The notes beneath the pieces were generated by a model. It was not told where the DNA came from and did no database searches. It saw only the letters and a list, made by a program, of their open reading frames with translations. The position numbers were made by a program, and so were the translations under genes. Of a DNA stretch of 33,129 nt, positions 24,175-33,032 are shown in pieces. Each line of letters starts with the position of its first letter. Within the stretch, counting starts at the first letter, position 1. The DNA comes from Kutzneria sp. 744 (lineage in GTDB: Bacteria; Actinomycetota; Actinomycetes; Mycobacteriales; Pseudonocardiaceae): positions 4,793,135 to 4,826,263 of the forward strand of contig NZ_KK037166.1 in the NCBI RefSeq assembly GCF_000568255.1. The letters are read 5' to 3'.

Positions 24175-25347
24175 TCAGTAAGTCGGCAGGCTCGGGTCGA
24201 CCTCGCGGGCCCAGGCCAACACGCCGCCGCCGACGTGCACGGCGTCTTTGAAACCAGCCTGATGCAGGGCGGCCAACGCCTCCGCGGACCGGGCGCCGGA
24301 CTTGCAGTGCAGCACCAGCGGCTTGTCCTGCGGCAGCTCGGAGAACGCCTCGCCGGACAGGATCCGGTCCTTGGGGATCAGCACCGAGCCCGGGATCTTG
24401 ACGATCTCGTACTCGTGCGGCTCCCGCACGTCGACCAGCAGGAAGTCCTCACCCGCGTCGATCTTCTGCTTGAGCTCGAGCGGCGTGATGGTGTGACCGG
24501 CGGCGGCGGACCGGGCGTCGTCGGACACGACACCGCAGAACGCCTCGTAGTCGATCAGCTCGGTGATCGGCTTGGTCTCCGGATCCTTGCGGATCTTGAT
24601 GGTGCGGTAGGTCATCTCCAGCGCGTCGTACACCATCAGGCGGCCGAGCAGCGTCTCACCGATGCCGGTGATCAGCTTGATCGCCTCGGTCACCATGATC
24701 GAGCCGATGGACGCGCACAGCACGCCCAGCACGCCGCCCTCCGCGCAGGAGGGGACCATGCCGGGAGGTGGCGGCTCGGGGTAGAGGTCGCGGTAGTTCA
24801 GGCCCTGGCCGTTGGGCGCGTCGTCCCAGAAGACGCTGGCCTGGCCCTCGAACCGGAAGATCGAGCCCCACACGTACGGCTTGCCCAGCAGCACCGCGGC
24901 GTCGTTGACCAGGTACCTGGTGGCGAAGTTGTCGGTGCCGTCCAGGATCAGGTCGTAGTCCCGGAAGACGTCGAGCGCGTTCTCCGAGTTCAGGTGCGTC
25001 TGGTGCAGAATCACCTTGACGAACGGGTTGATCTCGGCGATCGAGTCGCGGGCCGACTCGGCCTTGGGCCGTCCCACGTCGGACTGCCCGTGGATCACCT
25101 GGCGCTGCAGGTTGGACTCGTCGACGACGTCGAACTCCACGATGCCGAGCGTGCCGACCCCGGCGGCGGCCAGGTACAGCAGCGCCGGGCTGCCGAGGCC
25201 GCCGGCGCCGACGACCAGCACCTTGGCGTTCTTCAGCCGCTTCTGCCCGTCCACCCCGACATCCGGGATGATCAGGTGGCGGCTGTAGCGCTCGACCTCT
25301 TGTTTGGTCAGCTCCGCGGCTGGCTCAACGAGCGGCGGAAGCGGCAT
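24175..25347 (-). CDS. moeZ: MoeZ: adenylyltransferase/sulfurtransferase
   Basis: This 390-residue MoeZ has an N-terminal ThiF/MoeB-like adenylyltransferase and a C-terminal rhodanese. The nucleotide site is VLVVGAGGLGSPALLYLA at about residues 43-60. QRQVIHGQSDVGRPKAESA, DGTDNFATRYLVND and YRDLYPEPPPPGMVPSCAEG are highly conserved with mycobacterial MoeZ. The rhodanese active site is HCKSGARS with Cys348. MoeZ activates the C-terminal glycine of sulfur-carrier proteins and loads them with sulfur for molybdopterin, cysteine and other pathways. It lacks the zinc CxxC motif of MoeB, as usual for MoeZ. The ATG at 25347 is chosen because AGGAGG lies five bases upstream; an ATG at 25377 is the longer option. 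The surrounding gene order matches M. tuberculosis. Confidence 0.95.
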   Translation of the reverse strand: MPLPPLVEPAAELTKQEVERYSRHLIIPDVGVDGQKRLKNAKVLVVGAGGLGSPALLYLAAAGVGTLGIVEFDVVDESNLQRQVIHGQSDVGRPKAESARDSIAEINPFVKVILHQTHLNSENALDVFRDYDLILDGTDNFATRYLVNDAAVLLGKPYVWGSIFRFEGQASVFWDDAPNGQGLNYRDLYPEPPPPGMVPSCAEGGVLGVLCASIGSIMVTEAIKLITGIGETLLGRLMVYDALEMTYRTIKIRKDPETKPITELIDYEAFCGVVSDDARSAAAGHTITPLELKQKIDAGEDFLLVDVREPHEYEIVKIPGSVLIPKDRILSGEAFSELPQDKPLVLHCKSGARSAEALAALHQAGFKDAVHVGGGVLAWAREVDPSLPTY

Positions 25348-25453
25348 CTGCTCCTCCTCGACGCAGGGGGAATTCATCCTGCCCCCCCTTCAACGTCCAG
25401 CCTGCCTCAGTGTCTTCCCGGCGGGAAACTCGTCCCACAGGGTGGACAGGCCC

Positions 25454-26572
25454 TCACTGGCCGTTCTGGCCGCCGGGCGTGCCCTGGGGGTTGGGCCAGG
25501 CGTTGGGCCGGCACACCTTGCCGTCCTTGGTGACCGCCGTCCGGTTGGACGGGTCGGCCTGGTTGAGCTGCCACACGTAGTCGTCGGACACGCCGAAGGT
25601 CTGCTGCATCATCACCGGCGCCAGCCCGCCCTCGGCGCCGCAGCCCACGTGGGGGTTGCCGAACACGTGGCCGACCTCGTGGTTGATGGCGTACTCGCGG
25701 TACAGGCCGATGTCGCCGTTGAACGCCATCGCGCCGCGGATCCAGCGGGCCAGGTTGATCACGACCCGGTTGTAGTTCGGGTTCCAGCAGGAGGCCTCGT
25801 ACTGGATCTGGTAGCCGCACATGTCCGGCCGGTGGTCGGTGTTGGGCGTGGTCAGGCTGACGATGAAGTCCGGCTTCTTGAACTCCGGGCCGACCCGCTG
25901 CAGCGAGATCGAGCCGCTGCCGACCCAGCTGCGCGGGTCGGACAGGATGTTCTCCACCGTCTTGGCGAACGCGTCGTCGCCGCCGTAGGCCGCCTGGTCG
26001 ATGCCGTCCTCGACGGCGATCGCGTAGTGGTACAGCTTCGAGCCGCCGCCGACCTTCTGGCCGCTGCCCGCCACCAGGCGCCAGGTGCCGCTGCCGGCCT
26101 GCGGGAACGCGTCGCCCTGCGGCAGCACGGCGGTCCCCGTCTTCGGGTCCACCGGCACCGCTGAGTTCTCGGTCGCGGCCGGCGGGCCGCTGGTCGTCGT
26201 GACCGGGTTCTGCGCGGCCAGGCCGTCGACGCCGCTGGGGTCGGAGGAGGCCGGCGTGCGGGCCACGTTGAACACCACGAGCGCCGTGACCACCACGAGC
26301 ACCGGCAGGGCATAGACCCGCCAGCCGTAGGTCGCGGCGAAGCCCTTCACGCCCTTGCGGGGCGGCTTGCCCCGGCCCGGCTCGGCCAGCTCGTCCTCGG
26401 AGCGCTCCGGCCGCCACTTGGCGGCCAGCGGCTCCGCCGCGGTGCGGCGGCCGCCGTTGCGGTAGCGCTCCTCCGGGGGGCGACGGCTGGTCGCGGGACG
26501 GATCGGCGACACGTTGCTGGGCTTCGCGGGGCTGCCCTCGCTGCCACGGCCTTCCTGTGTCGTCCGAGTCAC
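25454..26572 (-). CDS. DUF3152 membrane-anchored metzincin-like protein
   Basis: This ~372-residue protein has a polar, Arg-rich N-terminus, a single membrane helix at about residues 84-104 (ALPVLVVVTALVVFNVA) and an extracytoplasmic C-terminal domain. The latter carries HEVGHVFGNPH (H298, E299, H302, H308), the metzincin zinc signature HExxHxxGxxH, with a Met-containing APVMMQQ behind it. DUF3152 members, such as Rv3207c beside moeZ, are therefore possible secreted zinc peptidases, although no substrate is known. Cys pairs (MCGYQ, ASCWN, VGCGAE, KVCRP) suggest disulfides. The GTG at 26572 is preferred, with ATG 26590 as alternative; neither has a strong ribosome site. It follows the hydrolase at 26619 on the same strand. 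Confidence 0.85.
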   Translation of the reverse strand: MTRTTQEGRGSEGSPAKPSNVSPIRPATSRRPPEERYRNGGRRTAAEPLAAKWRPERSEDELAEPGRGKPPRKGVKGFAATYGWRVYALPVLVVVTALVVFNVARTPASSDPSGVDGLAAQNPVTTTSGPPAATENSAVPVDPKTGTAVLPQGDAFPQAGSGTWRLVAGSGQKVGGGSKLYHYAIAVEDGIDQAAYGGDDAFAKTVENILSDPRSWVGSGSISLQRVGPEFKKPDFIVSLTTPNTDHRPDMCGYQIQYEASCWNPNYNRVVINLARWIRGAMAFNGDIGLYREYAINHEVGHVFGNPHVGCGAEGGLAPVMMQQTFGVSDDYVWQLNQADPSNRTAVTKDGKVCRPNAWPNPQGTPGGQNGQ

Positions 26573-26618
26573 CGACTCAGAGTGCCACATCCGTGACGGC
26601 CCGCCACGCAGGCCGGGC

Positions 26619-27650
26619 TCACCAGTTGCCCCGGTCCATGGCCTCCCACATGCCCAGCACGGCCCGCGCCACCGTGACCGGCCGTTCGATCTGGGCGCAG
26701 TGTCCGACGCGGGGCAGAACCAGCAGGCGACCGCGTTGCAGCAGCTGAGCGGTCCTCGGCCCCTTGCGCACGCTGACCAGTCGGTCCTGCGTGCCCCACA
26801 CCACCAGGGAAGGGGCCGTGACCTTGGGCACCACCCGCCACATCGATCGATGGGCCGGGGCCAACCAAGATCGGATCAACCCGATCGTGGTGGCCGCGAG
26901 GGCCGAGGAGTAGTACGGGTTGTTGTTGCGCTCGATCGTCTCGCGCACGCCCTCGTCGATCCGGTTCTCCGGGATCACCGAGGGACGGGCGAAGCACAGG
27001 CGCAGGATCTGCAGCGACTGCTCGCGCGGCGTCATCGCGGCCAGGCGGCGGCGCACCCCCGTGCCGATGAACGGCACGAAGGCCAGCGGCATCATCGGAT
27101 TGGCGCAGCGCCGCGGGTCCGGGCGCAGGTCGGGGACGGCCGGCGAGACCAGGGTCAGCGAGCGCACCAGGTCCGGGCGCTCGGCCGCGACGGCCAGCGA
27201 GATCGCGCCGCCCATCGAGTTGCCGAACAGGTGCACCGGGCCGCCCAGGCCGTCGAGGAAGCGGACCACGGTGTCGGTGTGCGTGGCCATGCTGAAGTCG
27301 TAGCCGTCCGGCGGCGGGGTGCGGCCGAAGCCCGGCAGGTCGAGGGCGATGCCGTTGACCTGGCCGGACAGCTGGCCCATCAGGTCCGTCCAGTTGGTGG
27401 ACGAGCCGCCGAGGCCGTGCACGAAGACCGCCGTCGGGGCCGCCGGGTTCGGGGCCGGGGTGCGGCGGACGTGCATCGTGACGTCGCCCGAGGTCATCAG
27501 CTCGCCCGGCCACGGCGGGATCGACAGGTCCAGCGGCGGCAGCGGCGCCGTCGAGAGGGGCACGCTGGTCAGCGACTGCGTCCGCGGGCGCGCGGGCAGG
27601 GTCAGCGGGATGCCGGCTCCGAGAGGCGCGGCCGCGGATACGGTCGTCAT
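26619..27650 (-). CDS. Alpha/beta hydrolase
   Basis: This 343-residue alpha/beta-hydrolase fold protein has the oxyanion-hole motif FVHGLGGSSTNW and the nucleophile elbow GNSMGG. The acid is in WGTQDRLV and the histidine in VGHCAQIE. The N-terminal 60 residues are low-complexity and Pro/Ala-rich (LPARPRTQSLTSVPLST) without a clear signal peptide. The C-terminus fits the standard epoxide-hydrolase/lipase-like fold. The substrate is unknown. The ATG at 27650 is chosen because a GAAGG lies just upstream and the preceding frame has no family homology. It sits between DUF3152 and the divergent TetR gene; such a hydrolase is absent at this place in M. tuberculosis, so it may be an addition to the conserved backbone. 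Confidence 0.8.
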   Translation of the reverse strand: MTTVSAAAPLGAGIPLTLPARPRTQSLTSVPLSTAPLPPLDLSIPPWPGELMTSGDVTMHVRRTPAPNPAAPTAVFVHGLGGSSTNWTDLMGQLSGQVNGIALDLPGFGRTPPPDGYDFSMATHTDTVVRFLDGLGGPVHLFGNSMGGAISLAVAAERPDLVRSLTLVSPAVPDLRPDPRRCANPMMPLAFVPFIGTGVRRRLAAMTPREQSLQILRLCFARPSVIPENRIDEGVRETIERNNNPYYSSALAATTIGLIRSWLAPAHRSMWRVVPKVTAPSLVVWGTQDRLVSVRKGPRTAQLLQRGRLLVLPRVGHCAQIERPVTVARAVLGMWEAMDRGNW

Positions 27651-27821
27651 GCCTTCATGATGCCTCGTGGACTCCCCGGGTTCACCTTCTGAGCGAGGTT
27701 GCGACACCTTCCGTACACCTGAAGCCGCAGGGAGCTCACCACAGGCCGCTACCGACGAGTAAGGTTTGGTCACCCGGCCGATCTGACTCGATCAGGGTGG
27801 GCGACGCTGGCGGGAGGCGAG

Positions 27822-28448
27822 ATGACGGAGACGGCACAACAGGGCATCGGGCGCGGTGTGCGGCTGCCCAGGTCGGCACGACGCGCCCAGCTGCTGGCCG
27901 CCGCGCAGGACGTGTTCGTGGCCAACGGCTACCACGCCGCCGCCATGGACGAGATCGCCGAACGGGCCGGCGTCAGCAAGCCCGTGCTGTACCAGCACTT
28001 CCCCGGCAAGCTCGAGCTCTACCTCGCCCTGCTCGAGAGCCACGTCGACGCCCTGGTCGCCTCCGTCCGCCAGGCCATGGAGTCCACCACCGACAACAAG
28101 CAGCGCGTGGTGGCCGCCGTGTCCGCCTTCTACGACTTCGTCGACAACGAGGGCCAGGCCTACCGCATGGTCTTCGAGTCCGACCTCCGCGGCGAGCCCG
28201 CCGTCCAGCAGGCCATCGAGCGCGCCACCTCGGCCAGCGTCGACGCCATCACCGAGACCATCATGGCCGACGCCGCCCTCGACCGTGACCGCGCTCGCCT
28301 GCTCGCCGTCGGCCTCACCGGTTTGTCGCAGGTCACCGCCCGCTTCTGGCTCGACACCGACCGCCGCGTGCCCAAGGAGGACGCCGTCCTGCTGGCCTCC
28401 ACCCTGGCCTGGCGCGGCATCGGCGGCGGCTTCCCGCTCCAGCACTGA
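27822..28448 (+). CDS. TetR-family regulator
   Basis: This 208-residue TetR/AcrR-like repressor has an N-terminal helix-turn-helix at about residues 20-65 (AAQDVFVANGYHAAAMDEIA, then ERAGVSKPVLYQHFPGKLEL). The C-terminal domain is helical and probably binds a ligand. The place next to DUF3152 and moeZ matches Rv3208 in M. tuberculosis, a well-conserved TetR of unknown ligand. A GGGAGGCGAG sequence just before the ATG gives a good ribosome site. It diverges from the hydrolase at 26619 with 171 bp between, where its operator should lie. The stop is followed by a palindromic dispersed repeat. Confidence 0.85.
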   Translation: MTETAQQGIGRGVRLPRSARRAQLLAAAQDVFVANGYHAAAMDEIAERAGVSKPVLYQHFPGKLELYLALLESHVDALVASVRQAMESTTDNKQRVVAAVSAFYDFVDNEGQAYRMVFESDLRGEPAVQQAIERATSASVDAITETIMADAALDRDRARLLAVGLTGLSQVTARFWLDTDRRVPKEDAVLLASTLAWRGIGGGFPLQH

Positions 28449-28838: not shown

Positions 28839-29720
28839 TCAGACCAGGTGGACGACCTGCCAGAGCTTGCGGCTGGGGCCGTCGATGAGGGTGTTCTCGT
28901 CGAGGAACGACACCAGCTTGGAGCCGGCCCAGCGCAACGTCTCCTGGTAGTGGGGATTGGCCCAGGCGACGCGGCGGGCCTCGTACGGATCGAGCCCGAC
29001 GGAGCGGTACACCCGGGGGTGGATCAGGGACCGGGTGACGATGTACGCGGTCCGGGCGAGCATGAAGCGGTGGTAGGCCAGCGCCGCCCGCGACAGGCCG
29101 GGAGTGCCGCGCAGGACCTCCTCCCGGGCGTAGCGGACGTGGCGGGCCTCCTCGATGACGTGGATACGGTTGACCATGCGCACGAGGGGCTGCACGGAGG
29201 AGTCGTTCATGGACTCGCGCTGGAGGGCGTCGGTGATCTCCTCGGCGACGAGGATGCCGGCGAACATGGAGGGGCCGAAGGCGATGTTCTTGAAGATGCG
29301 GCCGAGGCGCAGGGCGGTGCGGCCGGGGCCGTAGGCGGGGCAGCCGACCTTCTCGATGAGACGGGCGAACATCACGGAGTGGCGGCACTCGTCGGCGACC
29401 TCGGTGAGGGCGTACTGGGTGTGCCGCGCAAGGGGATCGGCGTCGTAGGAGTGGCGGACGAGCAGCTCCATGAGGATGACCTCGAACCAGATGCCGACGC
29501 TGGCGATGCTGGCCAGCTCGTGCTTGGTGAGCTCGATGCGCTGCTCGACGGAAAGCCCGTCCCACAAAGGGGTTCCGTAGAGGGAACAGCGGTGCGCGGG
29601 CAGGAAGTACTTGTCGGGCGCGAGGTCGGCGTCCCAGTCGATGTCGACGTCAGGGTCGTACGACCGGTCGGCTGACGACTTGAGCAGGCGCTCGGCGGTG
29701 CGCTCGCGGTCGGCGATCAT
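28839..29720 (-). CDS. AurF-like diiron protein, paralogue 1
   Basis: This 293-residue protein has a ferritin-like fold of the AurF (p-aminobenzoate N-oxygenase) family. Predicted diiron ligands are E68, E111, H114, E160, H187, E191 and H194, seen in KHELAS, ADECRHSVMF, VAEEITD, RIHVIEEARHVRYAREE. This is the full seven-ligand set expected of AurF. Family members oxidise amines or other substrates with O2 and two irons. It is about 60% alike to paralogue 2 at 30595 by eye, with all ligands five residues shifted, so the two come from one ancestor. The ATG (29720) overlaps the hydrolase stop (ATGA). It is third gene of the operon with paralogue 2 and the hydrolase. The substrate is unknown. Confidence 0.85.
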   Translation of the reverse strand: MIADRERTAERLLKSSADRSYDPDVDIDWDADLAPDKYFLPAHRCSLYGTPLWDGLSVEQRIELTKHELASIASVGIWFEVILMELLVRHSYDADPLARHTQYALTEVADECRHSVMFARLIEKVGCPAYGPGRTALRLGRIFKNIAFGPSMFAGILVAEEITDALQRESMNDSSVQPLVRMVNRIHVIEEARHVRYAREEVLRGTPGLSRAALAYHRFMLARTAYIVTRSLIHPRVYRSVGLDPYEARRVAWANPHYQETLRWAGSKLVSFLDENTLIDGPSRKLWQVVHLV

Positions 29721-30598
29721 GCGAGTCCTCCGATCCTGGCGGTCACTTCGAGACTGCGTTCGAGCGGGAGCATGTGCCCGGCGCCGGGATAGATCACGAG
29801 CTCGGACGAGGGCAGTTCCCCTGCTATCACACGGGAATGCCCGACGGGCGTGAGGCGGTCGGCGCCACCGGCGAGCACAAGCGTTGGGATGTCACGGAAA
29901 ACGGCCAGCGCGGCGCGGCGGTCGTGGTCGCCGAGGGAGGCCCGAAAGCCGACCATGGACGCGGGATGCACGCGGGCGACCTGCTCGGCGGCCGAGGCGA
30001 CGTCCTCACGTCGGGGATGCCGACCGAACAGGAGCCAGCGCAGGCCGGGCTCGGCCAGCCGGGGCTTGGCCAACAGCGCCCGGTGCTCGACCCGAGCCAG
30101 CCTGGCGTTCACGGCACCTTCGCCGCGCATGACGACCCGGGCGACAGGCGCCGGCAGGCCCAGCGTCAAAGCGTCCAGGCCGCCGGAAGACGTCGCTACG
30201 AAAGCGGCCCCGGTCACGCGAGACGCAACCAGGTCCGGGTTTCGTTCGGCCAGGGCCATCATGGTCATGCCGCCGATGGAATGCCCGGCCAGCACGACGG
30301 GACCGGTGGGAACCCGGTCGGCGATCAACTCCGCCAGGTCGTCGGCCAACTGCGCGATGGTGGCCGTGCCGAAGGGAGCGGGCGCCGAACCGCCGTGCCC
30401 GCGATGGTCGAAGCGCAGCACCCGGACGGTCCGGGACAGCGTCGACGCGACGCGGTCCCACGACGTGTGGTCCAGAGTCCAGGCGTGCACCAGGACCACA
30501 GTTGCCACAGCGTCCTCGGGACCCTCATCGACCACGTGCAACGCGGTGCCGTCCGAGGTGACGAACCGGCCGCGGGCGGCCGTGTCCCACGGCGTCAC
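29717..30598 (-). CDS. Alpha/beta hydrolase between the two AurF-like genes
   Basis: This 293-residue alpha/beta-hydrolase has the oxyanion motif VLVHAWTLDHTSW and the elbow GHSIGG with Ser107. The acid is in LAGGADRLTPVGHS and the His in GAGHMLPLERS. The GTG at 30598 overlaps the stop of the preceding AurF-like gene (GTGA), and its stop overlaps the next AurF-like start (ATGA). It is thus translated with both diiron proteins and probably acts on the same metabolite, for instance opening an ester, lactone or epoxide. A longer frame from 30691 runs into paralogue 2 and is rejected. No signal peptide. The chemistry is inferred from context only. Confidence 0.8.
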   Translation of the reverse strand: MTPWDTAARGRFVTSDGTALHVVDEGPEDAVATVVLVHAWTLDHTSWDRVASTLSRTVRVLRFDHRGHGGSAPAPFGTATIAQLADDLAELIADRVPTGPVVLAGHSIGGMTMMALAERNPDLVASRVTGAAFVATSSGGLDALTLGLPAPVARVVMRGEGAVNARLARVEHRALLAKPRLAEPGLRWLLFGRHPRREDVASAAEQVARVHPASMVGFRASLGDHDRRAALAVFRDIPTLVLAGGADRLTPVGHSRVIAGELPSSELVIYPGAGHMLPLERSLEVTARIGGLA

Positions 30599-31494
30599 CG
30601 AACGAGGAACGACTTGCGCCACAACGACATCCCCGGGTGACCGACGAGACCCACCTCGCCGAGGAAGCTCATGATCCGCTCGCCGGCCCACTCGATGGTG
30701 TCCCGGTACTGCGGGTTGTTCAGCGCGGCCTCGGCGCCGACCTTCGGATCGATGCCGACCGAGGCGTACACCCGCGGGTTGATGATGCTGCGGCAGATGA
30801 AAAAGCCGACCAGGGCGGTGAGTTCACGCTGGTACGCCAACTCGGTGCGCCCCATGCCCGCCATGCCCCGCACGACCTCCTCCCGGGCGAACCGGACGTG
30901 CCGCGCCTCCTCCAGGACGTGGATCCGGTTGACCATGCGGACCAGCGGCTGCACCGACTCGTCCTGCATGGCCTCGCGCTGCATGCGGTCCAGCACCTCC
31001 TCGGCGACGAGGATGGAGCCGTACATCGCCGGCCCGTAGCCGATGACCGGCAGCAGCTTGCCCAGCCGGTGCACGTGGCGCCGCGGCCCGTAGGCGGGGC
31101 AGCCGATGCGCTCGACCATGCGGGCGAACATCGTCGAGTGTCGACACTCGTCGGCGACCTCGGTGAGGGCGTACTGTGCGTGCCGCGTGGTGGGGTCCGC
31201 GTTGTAGACGGCTTTGACCAGCATCTGCATCAGCAGCACCTCGAACCACAGGCCGACGCTGGCCACACTGGCCACCTCGTGCTTGGTGAGTTCGATGCGC
31301 TGCGGCACGGTCAGGCCGTCCCACAGCGCGGTGCCGTACAGCGAACTGCGGTGCTGCGGGATGAAGTACTTGTCCTCGGCCAGCGGCGCCGCCCAGTCGA
31401 TGTCCACCTCGGGGTCGTAGAACTTGTCGGCCGAGGAGTTGAGCAGCCGTTCGGCGGTCTTCTCCCGGTCGGCGACCTTCAACGATCGAGCCAT
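30595..31494 (-). CDS. AurF-like diiron protein, paralogue 2
   Basis: This 299-residue AurF-like protein is first in the AurF-hydrolase-AurF operon. Predicted ligands are E73, E116, H119, E165, H192, E196 and H199 (KHEVAS, DECRHSTMF, VAEEVLD, RIHVLEEARHVRFAREE), the complete set of the family. The N-terminal REKTAERLLNSSADKFYDPE is shared with paralogue 1. The ATG at 31494 has GGAGG four bases upstream. The gene diverges from a TetR regulator at 31564, and the 69-bp gap holds a clear palindrome, so both are probably under that repressor. Like AurF it may catalyse N-oxygenation or a related O2-dependent step; a paired diiron and hydrolase pathway is inferred. The gene is in the cytosol. Confidence 0.85.
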   Translation of the reverse strand: MARSLKVADREKTAERLLNSSADKFYDPEVDIDWAAPLAEDKYFIPQHRSSLYGTALWDGLTVPQRIELTKHEVASVASVGLWFEVLLMQMLVKAVYNADPTTRHAQYALTEVADECRHSTMFARMVERIGCPAYGPRRHVHRLGKLLPVIGYGPAMYGSILVAEEVLDRMQREAMQDESVQPLVRMVNRIHVLEEARHVRFAREEVVRGMAGMGRTELAYQRELTALVGFFICRSIINPRVYASVGIDPKVGAEAALNNPQYRDTIEWAGERIMSFLGEVGLVGHPGMSLWRKSFLVR

Positions 31495-31524
31495 CGCTCC
31501 TCCGCTCGGTCCAGTCGGATTAGT

Positions 31525-31545
31525 GTTACCGGAAGTAACGGTAAC
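31525..31545. promoter_or_regulatory. TetR operator between aurF-like operon and tetR
   Basis: GTTACCG-GAAGTAA-CGGTAAC is a perfect 7+7 inverted repeat, with an inner GTTAC/GTAAC pair. It lies in the 69-bp gap between divergent starts (31494 and 31564), where a self-regulating TetR protein would be expected to bind. Confidence 0.7.
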
Positions 31546-31563
31546 TCTGGTAGCGTGGGTCAC

Positions 31564-32334
31564 ATGGGTCGAGCTGTCAAGAGGTCGCCGGACGGTGGGG
31601 ACGCACGCCGAGAGCGGTGGCGGGCGCACCGCGAGGCCAGGCGCGAGGAGTTCGTCGACGCCACCATCCGGGCCCTGACCAAGCACGGCCCCGAGGTCGG
31701 CATGGACGAGATCGCGGCCGAGGCCGGCGTGACCAAACCCGTGCTGTACCGGCACTTCGCCGACAAGTCCGACCTGTATCTCGCGGTCGGCCAGCGCGGC
31801 ACCGACCTGCTGATGAACCGGCTCAAGCCGGCCCTGGTCGACGACGGCACGCCGTACGAGCGGATCTATCGCGCGGTGGACTCCTATCTGGCCACCATCG
31901 AGGAGTTCCCGGAGCTCTACCACTTCGTCGTGCGGCGCTCGTTCACCGACAAGCCGGTCGAGACGGACATCGCCACCGAGGACAAGCGGATCATCGCCAA
32001 CACGCTGGCCCGCCTGCTCGGCGACTACCTGCGGGCGTTCGACATGGACTCCGGCGGCGCCGAGCCGTGGGCGCACGCGGCGGTCGGCATGGTGCAGAGC
32101 GCGGGCGACTGGTGGCTGGAGCGGCAGTCCATGACCAGGCAGGGCCTGAGCGACTACCTGACGAAGATCATCTGGTTCGCGGTGGACGGCCTGCTGCGCT
32201 CCGGCGGCATCACCATCGACCCGCAGACGCCGCTGAGCCTGGAGGCCAACCCGCCGCTGCGGCTCGTGCCGGGCAAGACGCCGCCGGCCAAGACACAGGG
32301 AGAGACCGGGGATGACCGACGAGCACGGGGATGA
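31564..32334 (+). CDS. TetR-family regulator of the AurF-like operon
   Basis: This 256-residue TetR-like protein has a helix-turn-helix at about residues 28-75 (EEFVDATIRALTKHGPEVG, MDEIAAEAGVTKPVLYRHF). The C-terminal part is a longer helical ligand domain with a Pro-rich tail. It diverges from the AurF-like operon with a perfect palindromic operator between them, so it probably represses both directions and is released by a small molecule linked to the operon's chemistry. No ribosome site precedes the ATG; a TAGCGT element eight bases upstream suggests a leaderless transcript. Its 3' end overlaps the DUF4873 start by 23 bases, so that gene belongs to the same transcript. Confidence 0.8.
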   Translation: MGRAVKRSPDGGDARRERWRAHREARREEFVDATIRALTKHGPEVGMDEIAAEAGVTKPVLYRHFADKSDLYLAVGQRGTDLLMNRLKPALVDDGTPYERIYRAVDSYLATIEEFPELYHFVVRRSFTDKPVETDIATEDKRIIANTLARLLGDYLRAFDMDSGGAEPWAHAAVGMVQSAGDWWLERQSMTRQGLSDYLTKIIWFAVDGLLRSGGITIDPQTPLSLEANPPLRLVPGKTPPAKTQGETGDDRRARG

Positions 32335-32631
32335 GGGCTACACCGGGGATGCCGTGCTCGTGGCCGGCGACCGCGAGGTGACGGTGCGCGCGGTGCTGCG
32401 CGGCTACTTCCAGCCGATCGACGGCCGGTACCACTGGTACGGGCCGGCTCGACCCGACCAGACGGTCACCGACCTGGTCGAGGGCGGTCGCAAGGAGCGG
32501 CTGCTGTGGCACGAACGAGGGCGACCCCCAAGGCGCTGCTGTCCGACCCGGACCCGTGGCAGCGTTATTTTGGTGGGGCGGGACGTCCCGGTTTTCGTTC
32601 TTTTTTGGAGACGGCGCCGGCGCACGACTGA
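32312..32631 (+). pseudogene. DUF4873-like protein, frameshifted as sequenced
   Basis: The start is DUF4873-like: GYTGDAVLVAGDREVTVRAV, LRGYFQPIDGRYHWYGPA and VEGGRKERLL. DUF4873 is a small domain often found with flavin monooxygenases and near diiron oxygenases; its role is unknown. From about 32508 the frame is lost. Later frames resume TNEGD, then PKALLSDPDPWQRY, the usual end-motif, and a plausible stop is at 32631. Removing one base near 32508, one C from the run at 32525-32529 and one T or so beyond 32566 restores the order. The T-rich stretch (TTTTCGTTCTTTTTT at 32592-32606) is odd for this GC-rich DNA. The ATG at 32312 has AGGGAGA upstream and overlaps the TetR gene. Confidence 0.6.
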
Positions 32632-32699: not shown

Positions 32700-32921
32700 C
32701 TAGGCGAAGCCGACCTTGCGCGCGTCGGACGCGCCGATCTCGACGTAGGAGATCCGCGTCGACGGGATGACAAAGCGGCGGCCCTTGTCGTCGACCAGCG
32801 TCAGCACGGACTGCTTGCCCGCGAACGCGTCGGCGACGAGCGCCTCGACCTCGTCCGGCGACAGGTCGCTGTTGACGAGGAGCTCCCGTGCGCTCTCGAC
32901 GACGCCGATCTTGATCTCCAC
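32700..32921 (-). CDS. DUF3107 protein
   Basis: This 73-residue protein is DUF3107, found in most actinobacteria and equal to Rv3208A (TB9.4) of M. tuberculosis, which sits next to the conserved TetR. It starts VEIKIGVVESARELLVNSD and ends ISYVEIGASDARKVGFA. It is probably a small compact cytosolic beta-alpha protein; its function is not known. The GTG at 32921 has GGAGG six bases upstream. The frame could run up to 32975 but that part has no similarity. Here it is separated from that TetR by the AurF-like module. Confidence 0.9.
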   Translation of the reverse strand: MEIKIGVVESARELLVNSDLSPDEVEALVADAFAGKQSVLTLVDDKGRRFVIPSTRISYVEIGASDARKVGFA

Positions 32922-33032
32922 GCTGACCTCCGGTCTGGAACATGCTCTCGTCGACCAGGCTAGTAGAGCCGACACGCATCCCGCCCCACCGCCCCATCAG
33001 CCCACGGCGAAATGTCGCAGGACCGGCAACCA

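Follow-up and report, generated by a model that had tools for sequence, protein, structure and literature searches.

An AurF-like diiron oxygenase operon of Kutzneria sp. 744 at a conserved, TetR-associated locus with a candidate operator and a DUF4873 gene

The stretch of Kutzneria sp. 744 DNA analysed here (33,129 nucleotides, hereafter the window), whose host genome is one contig of 11.65 Mb, carries an operon in which two genes for AurF-like diiron oxygenases flank an alpha/beta-hydrolase gene, with a divergent TetR-family regulator gene across a palindromic candidate operator and a gene of the DUF4873 family behind the regulator. This operon is no artefact and is more than mere gene doubling: its layout goes beyond chance, since many other genera have the genes in the same order and nonsynonymous divergence (dN) is far below synonymous divergence (dS) in both AurF copies. 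We hold, with somewhat better than even confidence, that this operon forms the centre of a regulon under TetR control whose enzymes oxidise hydrophobic compounds, and the regulatory wiring, as predicted from sequence, is the best-supported part of this model. What is new is the conserved regulated locus, its operator and the link to DUF4873, and no new reaction is established. An earlier, sequence-only reading of this DNA had called the system a candidate for an undescribed oxidative pathway; searches of open-licence papers gave no publication describing the locus or the operator.

The candidate operator GTTACCGTTACTTCCGGTAAC occupies positions 31525-31545, exactly where a palindrome had been placed by that reading, and the TetR gene (31564-32334, + strand) diverges across it from the first AurF gene. 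The palindrome is part of the composite site GTWACnGTTACnnnnnGTWAC, of which this is one instance. The exact site is present in 102 of 151 TetR-AurF intergenic regions (98 of the 146 unique ones), against a mean of 0 in 20 base shuffles. Among 46 family genomes, 33 contain exact sites, 48 sites in all, and the reversed-pattern control gave 0; in a scan of the order, the site was found in 25 of 150 genomes and its reversed control in 1. By a hand tally, 45 of the 48 sites adjoin a gene for an AurF-like protein, a TetR regulator, a hydrolase, a flavin monooxygenase or an SDR-hydrolase, while the other three (L237:3583, L238:3058 and L243:3175) have no recognised regulon neighbour, nor do the exact sites L263:1501 and L274:1501 of genome G157.

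The genes that share the site outline what the regulon may comprise. Operator-linked flavin monooxygenases were confirmed as PF00743 members in four genera, and the one that was searched against the PDB has cyclohexanone monooxygenases as its nearest relatives. In all three loci scanned (L249:464-2911, L251:609-3005 and L253:2981-5451), a gene for a ferredoxin-pyridine nucleotide reductase fusion lies downstream of the site-bearing AurF paralogue, and these fusions are plausible candidates for the electron donor of AurF-type enzymes. The window genome has one exact site, the one described here, and two sites with one mismatch, one of them separated by 21 bp from the PF10118 gene that it precedes; the one-mismatch site L203 has no recognised neighbour. 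At L204:5879-9410 (G000:C1:3128378) a near-match operator and a PF10118 gene have a gene for an alpha/beta-hydrolase-SDR fusion downstream. A near-match site, at most two mismatches from the consensus, also precedes the PF10118 gene by 21 bp in three more genomes of the genus (four of seven in total), and no near-match site was found at any PF10118 gene of G003 and G006. Moreover, a PF10118 gene follows the flavin monooxygenase in two operator loci; a PDB search with PF10118 gave no relative at E values up to 1.

The locus was surveyed with tblastn, using ten window proteins as queries on fetched loci. The order MoeZ, DUF3152, HydB, FasR-like regulator, hydrolase, AurF, TetR, DUF4873 and DUF3107 recurs in many genera of the Pseudonocardiaceae, including Lentzea, Saccharothrix, Amycolatopsis and Saccharopolyspora, and parts of it are found in Pseudonocardia. 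The set comprises 140 loci with a TetR match of at least 150 bits, identical TetR genes removed and the window excluded, and 108 of them are of the FasR/DUF3107 type; the loci were chosen for carrying AurF or the operator, so that the counts are no population frequencies. Among the 108, one AurF gene, the hydrolase and DUF4873 occur together in 91; two AurF genes with both partners in 6 (five in Kutzneria besides the window, one in another genus); AurF and DUF4873 with no hydrolase match in 6; and TetR with hydrolase, having neither AurF nor DUF4873, in 5, one of which (L236) has its hydrolase match split into four pieces. AurF is thus present in 103 of the 108 loci, 97 of which also have the hydrolase, which bears out the idea that AurF-like gene, hydrolase, divergent TetR, conserved operator and DUF4873 form a unit. 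The sequence-only reading had named single, scattered homologues lacking a hydrolase partner as what would count against it; the homologues are indeed mostly single, but they occupy one conserved place and have the hydrolase beside them.

In the window, this neighbourhood consists of MoeZ adenylyltransferase/sulfurtransferase (24175-25377, - strand; 764.9 bits, cut-off 647), a DUF3152 protein (25454-26590, -; 248.2 bits), the alpha/beta-hydrolase HydB (26619-27773, -; PF00561, 102.6 bits), which is present at most of the loci, a FasR-like regulator (27822-28448, +; 295.7 bits against a FasR cut-off of 330) and, on the far side, a DUF3107 protein (32700-32975, -; 99.4 bits), with DUF3152 and HydB placed by synteny. 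Outside the family, for example in Micromonospora, Actinoplanes and Nocardioides, a divergent TetR-AurF pair is found, often with DUF4873 and with no match to this hydrolase. In two Nocardioides loci (L156:3176-4893 and L164:3160-4416) the side with TetR and DUF4873 continues with a gene for an MFS transporter, a MarR-type gene intervening in L156.

The two diiron proteins are 63% identical. AurF-1 (30595-31494, - strand; 299 aa), the usual positional ortholog by synteny, adjoins TetR, and AurF-2 (28839-29720, -; 293 aa) lies 3' of the hydrolase (29717-30598, -; GTG start); the AurF-1/hydrolase overlap is GTGA (30595-30598) and the hydrolase/AurF-2 overlap ATGA (29717-29720). Both proteins belong to PF11583 by score (363.6 bits for AurF-1 and 359.7 for AurF-2, gathering cut-off 29.6). 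The candidate iron ligands are E85, E116, H119, E165, H192, E196 and H199 in AurF-1, and E80, E111, H114, E160, H187, E191 and H194 in AurF-2; the seven positions are identical in 13 of 13 Kutzneria and G023 rows and invariant in the 23-row and 41-row alignments. The AurF-like proteins carry the EX28-37DEXXH iron-binding motif together with all seven ligands, the AurF-1 motifs being E85-x29-DE116xxH119 and E165-x29-EE196xxH199, plus H192, with E replacing D in the second. In both AlphaFold2 models the predicted ligands sit on four long helices, which may form a ferritin-like bundle, with a mean predicted local distance difference test (pLDDT) score of 92.6 for AurF-1 and 93.4 for AurF-2. When the window copies are compared pairwise with those of other Kutzneria, dN/dS comes to about 0.15-0.28 in five comparisons of AurF-1 and about 0.13-0.25 in four of AurF-2. 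Scores, alignments and coordinates thus agree with the earlier description of two intact paralogues with seven predicted ligands flanking a hydrolase. We infer that these proteins are oxygenases, acting on nitrogen or on carbon, since the ligands are conserved and such chemistry is that of the family. Arylamine N-oxygenation, which the earlier reading gave as the known activity of AurF-type enzymes, does not follow: a search of PDB sequences with the AurF profile, at E values up to 1, gave no AurF or CmlI chain and only 6egc (E 0.057) and the VlmB homolog 6d9f (E 0.24), and the operator is shared with flavin monooxygenase and hydrolase genes.

PF11583 genes are found in 91 of 100 family genomes, and the AurF pair at this locus in six of the seven genomes of the Kutzneria genus group; in the seventh (G005, 4.7 Mb in 210 contigs) neither a pair nor the site was found, the presence of the locus there being unchecked. 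A pair as a family-wide feature is rejected, and the pair as the functional unit of the locus, as had been proposed, is not supported, one copy being present at 97 of 103 AurF-bearing loci and two at 6. A scan of 390 genomes, with a strict threshold and scoring limited to six candidates in each, gave two matches in eight of them, namely six Kutzneria, G023, whose second AurF sits elsewhere (L181), and G435. A separate pair at the FasR-type locus of G012, in the order AurF-AurF-hydrolase (L242:3058-5783, G012:C61), fell under this threshold and was recovered via the operator, and therefore other divergent pairs may exist. A distinct set of five AurF-like genes lies in tandem on one strand of the same genome (L089:5764-10715, G012:C21); these are 26-32% identical to the window proteins and form a separate deep clade.

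In a careful tree of 73 rows, from which long-branch or redundant loci were omitted, the G012 copies group together (100/99), and their pair is a local tandem duplication, independent of the pair in Kutzneria. The same tree groups Kutzneria AurF-2 with the AurF of the G023 locus (99/97), which is likewise placed behind the hydrolase and is the only AurF there, of AurF-2 type. A genus-level tandem duplication in Kutzneria was tried and rejected: with all Kutzneria copies constrained to one clade, on a tree omitting the five L089 rows, the approximately unbiased (AU) test gave p 0.0041 and a log-likelihood (lnL) difference of 71.4, this idea predating the first tree and the test having been run after that tree was viewed. 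The grouping with G023 and the rejected single clade argue that AurF-2 represents an older lineage, kept or acquired, and not the sister of AurF-1. The two Kutzneria sets have fixed differences in 28 of 293 columns, including four columns that are no more than four residues away from a ligand, and at these 28 columns G023 matches AurF-2 at 18 and AurF-1 at 4.

The DUF4873 gene (32312-32631, + strand) was predicted correctly behind TetR as far as the gene itself is concerned, which scores 63.8 bits against the PF16170 gathering cut-off of 25; its reading frame is broken in this assembly. In four sister Kutzneria genomes the gene is intact and open over 104 aa, and in a fifth the reading frame stays open throughout the 101 residues that matched. 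Indel errors in the window copy would fit the completeness of 95.19% recorded for this single-contig genome, and real decay is possible. At FasR/DUF3107-type loci, DUF4873 is present in 103 of 103 AurF-bearing and in 0 of 5 AurF-less loci (Fisher p 9e-9, uncorrected for kinship), and a profile search of the five AurF-less loci gave no match. The TetR tree implies three independent changes, of which DUF4873 follows an average of 2.9, and this number of changes is too small to reach significance. A class-wide scan gave a DUF4873 match in 10 of 118 genomes, that of the window included, one in each; all ten lie beside an AurF-like gene (7) or a flavin monooxygenase gene (5), and two beside both. 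The order flavin monooxygenase-DUF4873-hydrolase is found in three genomes of group f31. At L288:604-1779 and L289:103-1761 (group f8/g53), flavin monooxygenase and DUF4873 share one reading frame, judging by coordinates, directly behind an AurF-like gene.

The hydrolase, a PF00561 protein (96.7 bits), has a Ser107/Asp247/His275 triad that all 111 of the 111 hydrolases aligned share, that of the window among them. It scores 100.4 bits against TIGR02427, below the cut-off of 255.85, and resembles the 3-oxoadipate enol-lactonase PcaD only distantly. The operon regulator has TetR_N (48.8 bits) and TetR_C_32 (61.3 bits) domains, and its best PDB matches, 6o6p and 6o6n, are FasR. According to the passages cited, FasR is a TetR-family sensor that binds long-chain acyl-CoA in a tunnel (PMC7382501); since it is the nearest solved relative, a hydrophobic, acyl-type ligand is suggested for the operon TetR as well.

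Taken as a regulon, the locus could work as follows. TetR would bind the site and repress both directions until released by a hydrophobic ligand, for which the resemblance to FasR suggests an acyl chain; the AurF-like protein would then oxygenate this ligand or a relative of it, using O2 and electrons from a reductase, DUF4873 would assist the oxygenase, and the hydrolase would cleave an ester, lactone or amide that the oxidation, be it Baeyer-Villiger-type or N-oxidation, has formed or uncovered. The most likely role of the second oxygenase of Kutzneria is to broaden the range of substrates or to divide it between the two enzymes, and not to add an obligatory second step or a heterodimer subunit, because one copy suffices in most of the other genera examined.

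Several points weigh against this regulon. The exact motif is missing from 48 of the 146 unique TetR-AurF intergenic regions and from 13 of the 46 family genomes, several query genes of the site tally came from the tallied loci themselves, and the operon TetR is only a candidate for the protein that binds the distant sites. The same TetR scores 73.6 bits with the FasR model NF053731, against a cut-off of 330, and is FasR-like, not FasR. Losses and retentions of the hydrolase do not follow those of AurF, which leaves a coupling of the two through a substrate conjectural, and deletion of the litP hydrolase of the lipothrenin cluster had minor effects only in the passages cited (PMC10616846). Additionally, no DUF4873 match was found at four flavin monooxygenase loci linked to the operator (L235, L239, L240 and L247), at the AurF-paralogue loci L249, L251-L254, L050 and L056, or at ten distant AurF loci whose TetR match is weak (92-159 bits), in searches whose profile was built from AurF-locus DUF4873 and may miss distant members. 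DUF4873 is therefore no general requirement.

A broader version of the regulon is conceivable and is put forward tentatively: DUF4873 would be a dedicated partner of both AurF-type diiron enzymes and Baeyer-Villiger-like flavin enzymes, one TetR operator would wire both classes and hydrolases into an undescribed actinobacterial regulon for lipid or ketone oxidation, and Kutzneria would use two specialised diiron enzymes; the lack of any DUF4873 match at the flavin monooxygenase loci with the operator makes this version less probable. Less probable than the main model is also that the AurF-like proteins are N-oxygenases hydroxylating an amine or an acyl-amide, as is presumed for LitN, with the hydrolase releasing the product and the locus making a hydroxamate or a similar compound. 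PF11583 membership, the EX29DExxH and EX29EExxH ligand motifs and the occurrence of litN, litO, litP and litQ in a row (PMC10616846, in the part cited) agree with this proposal, but the likeness to LitN comes from annotation, not from sequence comparison, the ten window proteins scanned include no fatty-acid activating or peptide-forming enzyme, and the locus lies amid MoeZ, FasR-like and DUF3107 genes in many genera. That conserved chromosomal place also suggests a native role, and so makes it equally doubtful that the genes serve chiefly to detoxify foreign hydrophobic compounds on demand and lack a natural substrate of their own, an explanation that would suit a TetR gene with divergent oxygenase and hydrolase genes and the MFS transporter genes of the two Nocardioides loci. 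Finally, that the two oxygenases share one substrate, on which they act one after the other or as a heterodimer, as first proposed, is improbable given the single copy at most AurF-bearing loci and the G023 locus with the AurF-2 type only, even though both copies are intact with dN below dS, the pair is retained in six of the seven genomes of the genus and a second, independent pair arose at an equivalent locus in another genus.

To our knowledge, characterised AurF-type enzymes stem from natural-product pathways, and an AurF-like enzyme whose chromosomal position is shared by many genera of an actinobacterial family is unlike such settings. The candidate operator, with the oxygenases, hydrolases and reductases that share it, offers a handle on what induces the proposed regulon, which substrate it acts on, where its electrons come from and what DUF4873 does, and the site can be used for finding further members.

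Among known systems, pathways that combine a Baeyer-Villiger monooxygenase with an esterase resemble the regulon in that the operator precedes cyclohexanone-monooxygenase-like genes and the f31 genomes place DUF4873 between flavin monooxygenase and hydrolase; in the window locus, by contrast, the oxygenase is a diiron protein. With the arylamine N-oxygenases AurF, CmlI and AzoC, the window proteins share, as far as the cited passages go, the PF11583 family of AurF and CmlI (PMC10724926), EX28-37DEXXH type motifs as in AzoC (PMC6783550) and, judging by the models, possibly a helical bundle. They differ from AurF in that the second motif starts with E195 where AurF has D226 (PMC12101540), and the window operon lies outside any recognised biosynthetic cluster. 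FasR is the nearest solved relative of the operon TetR, from which the bit score separates it, and the gene at 27822-28448 is the closer FasR-like one. The nearest parallel in gene content is the lit cluster of Streptomyces aureus, ordered litN (diiron N-oxygenase), litO (DUF4873), litP (hydrolase) and litQ (TetR), which brings the same four kinds of gene together, matched by annotation only. That cluster is unlike the window in being biosynthetic and in encoding an acyl carrier protein and a fatty-acyl AMP ligase, LitP is called a dienelactone hydrolase, and the lipothrenin passages cited mention no operator. According to the same passages, deletion of the AurF-like litN abolishes N-hydroxylation in lipothrenin biosynthesis and deletion of litO lowers it (PMC10616846), so that the loss of the diiron protein and the loss of DUF4873 hit one step.

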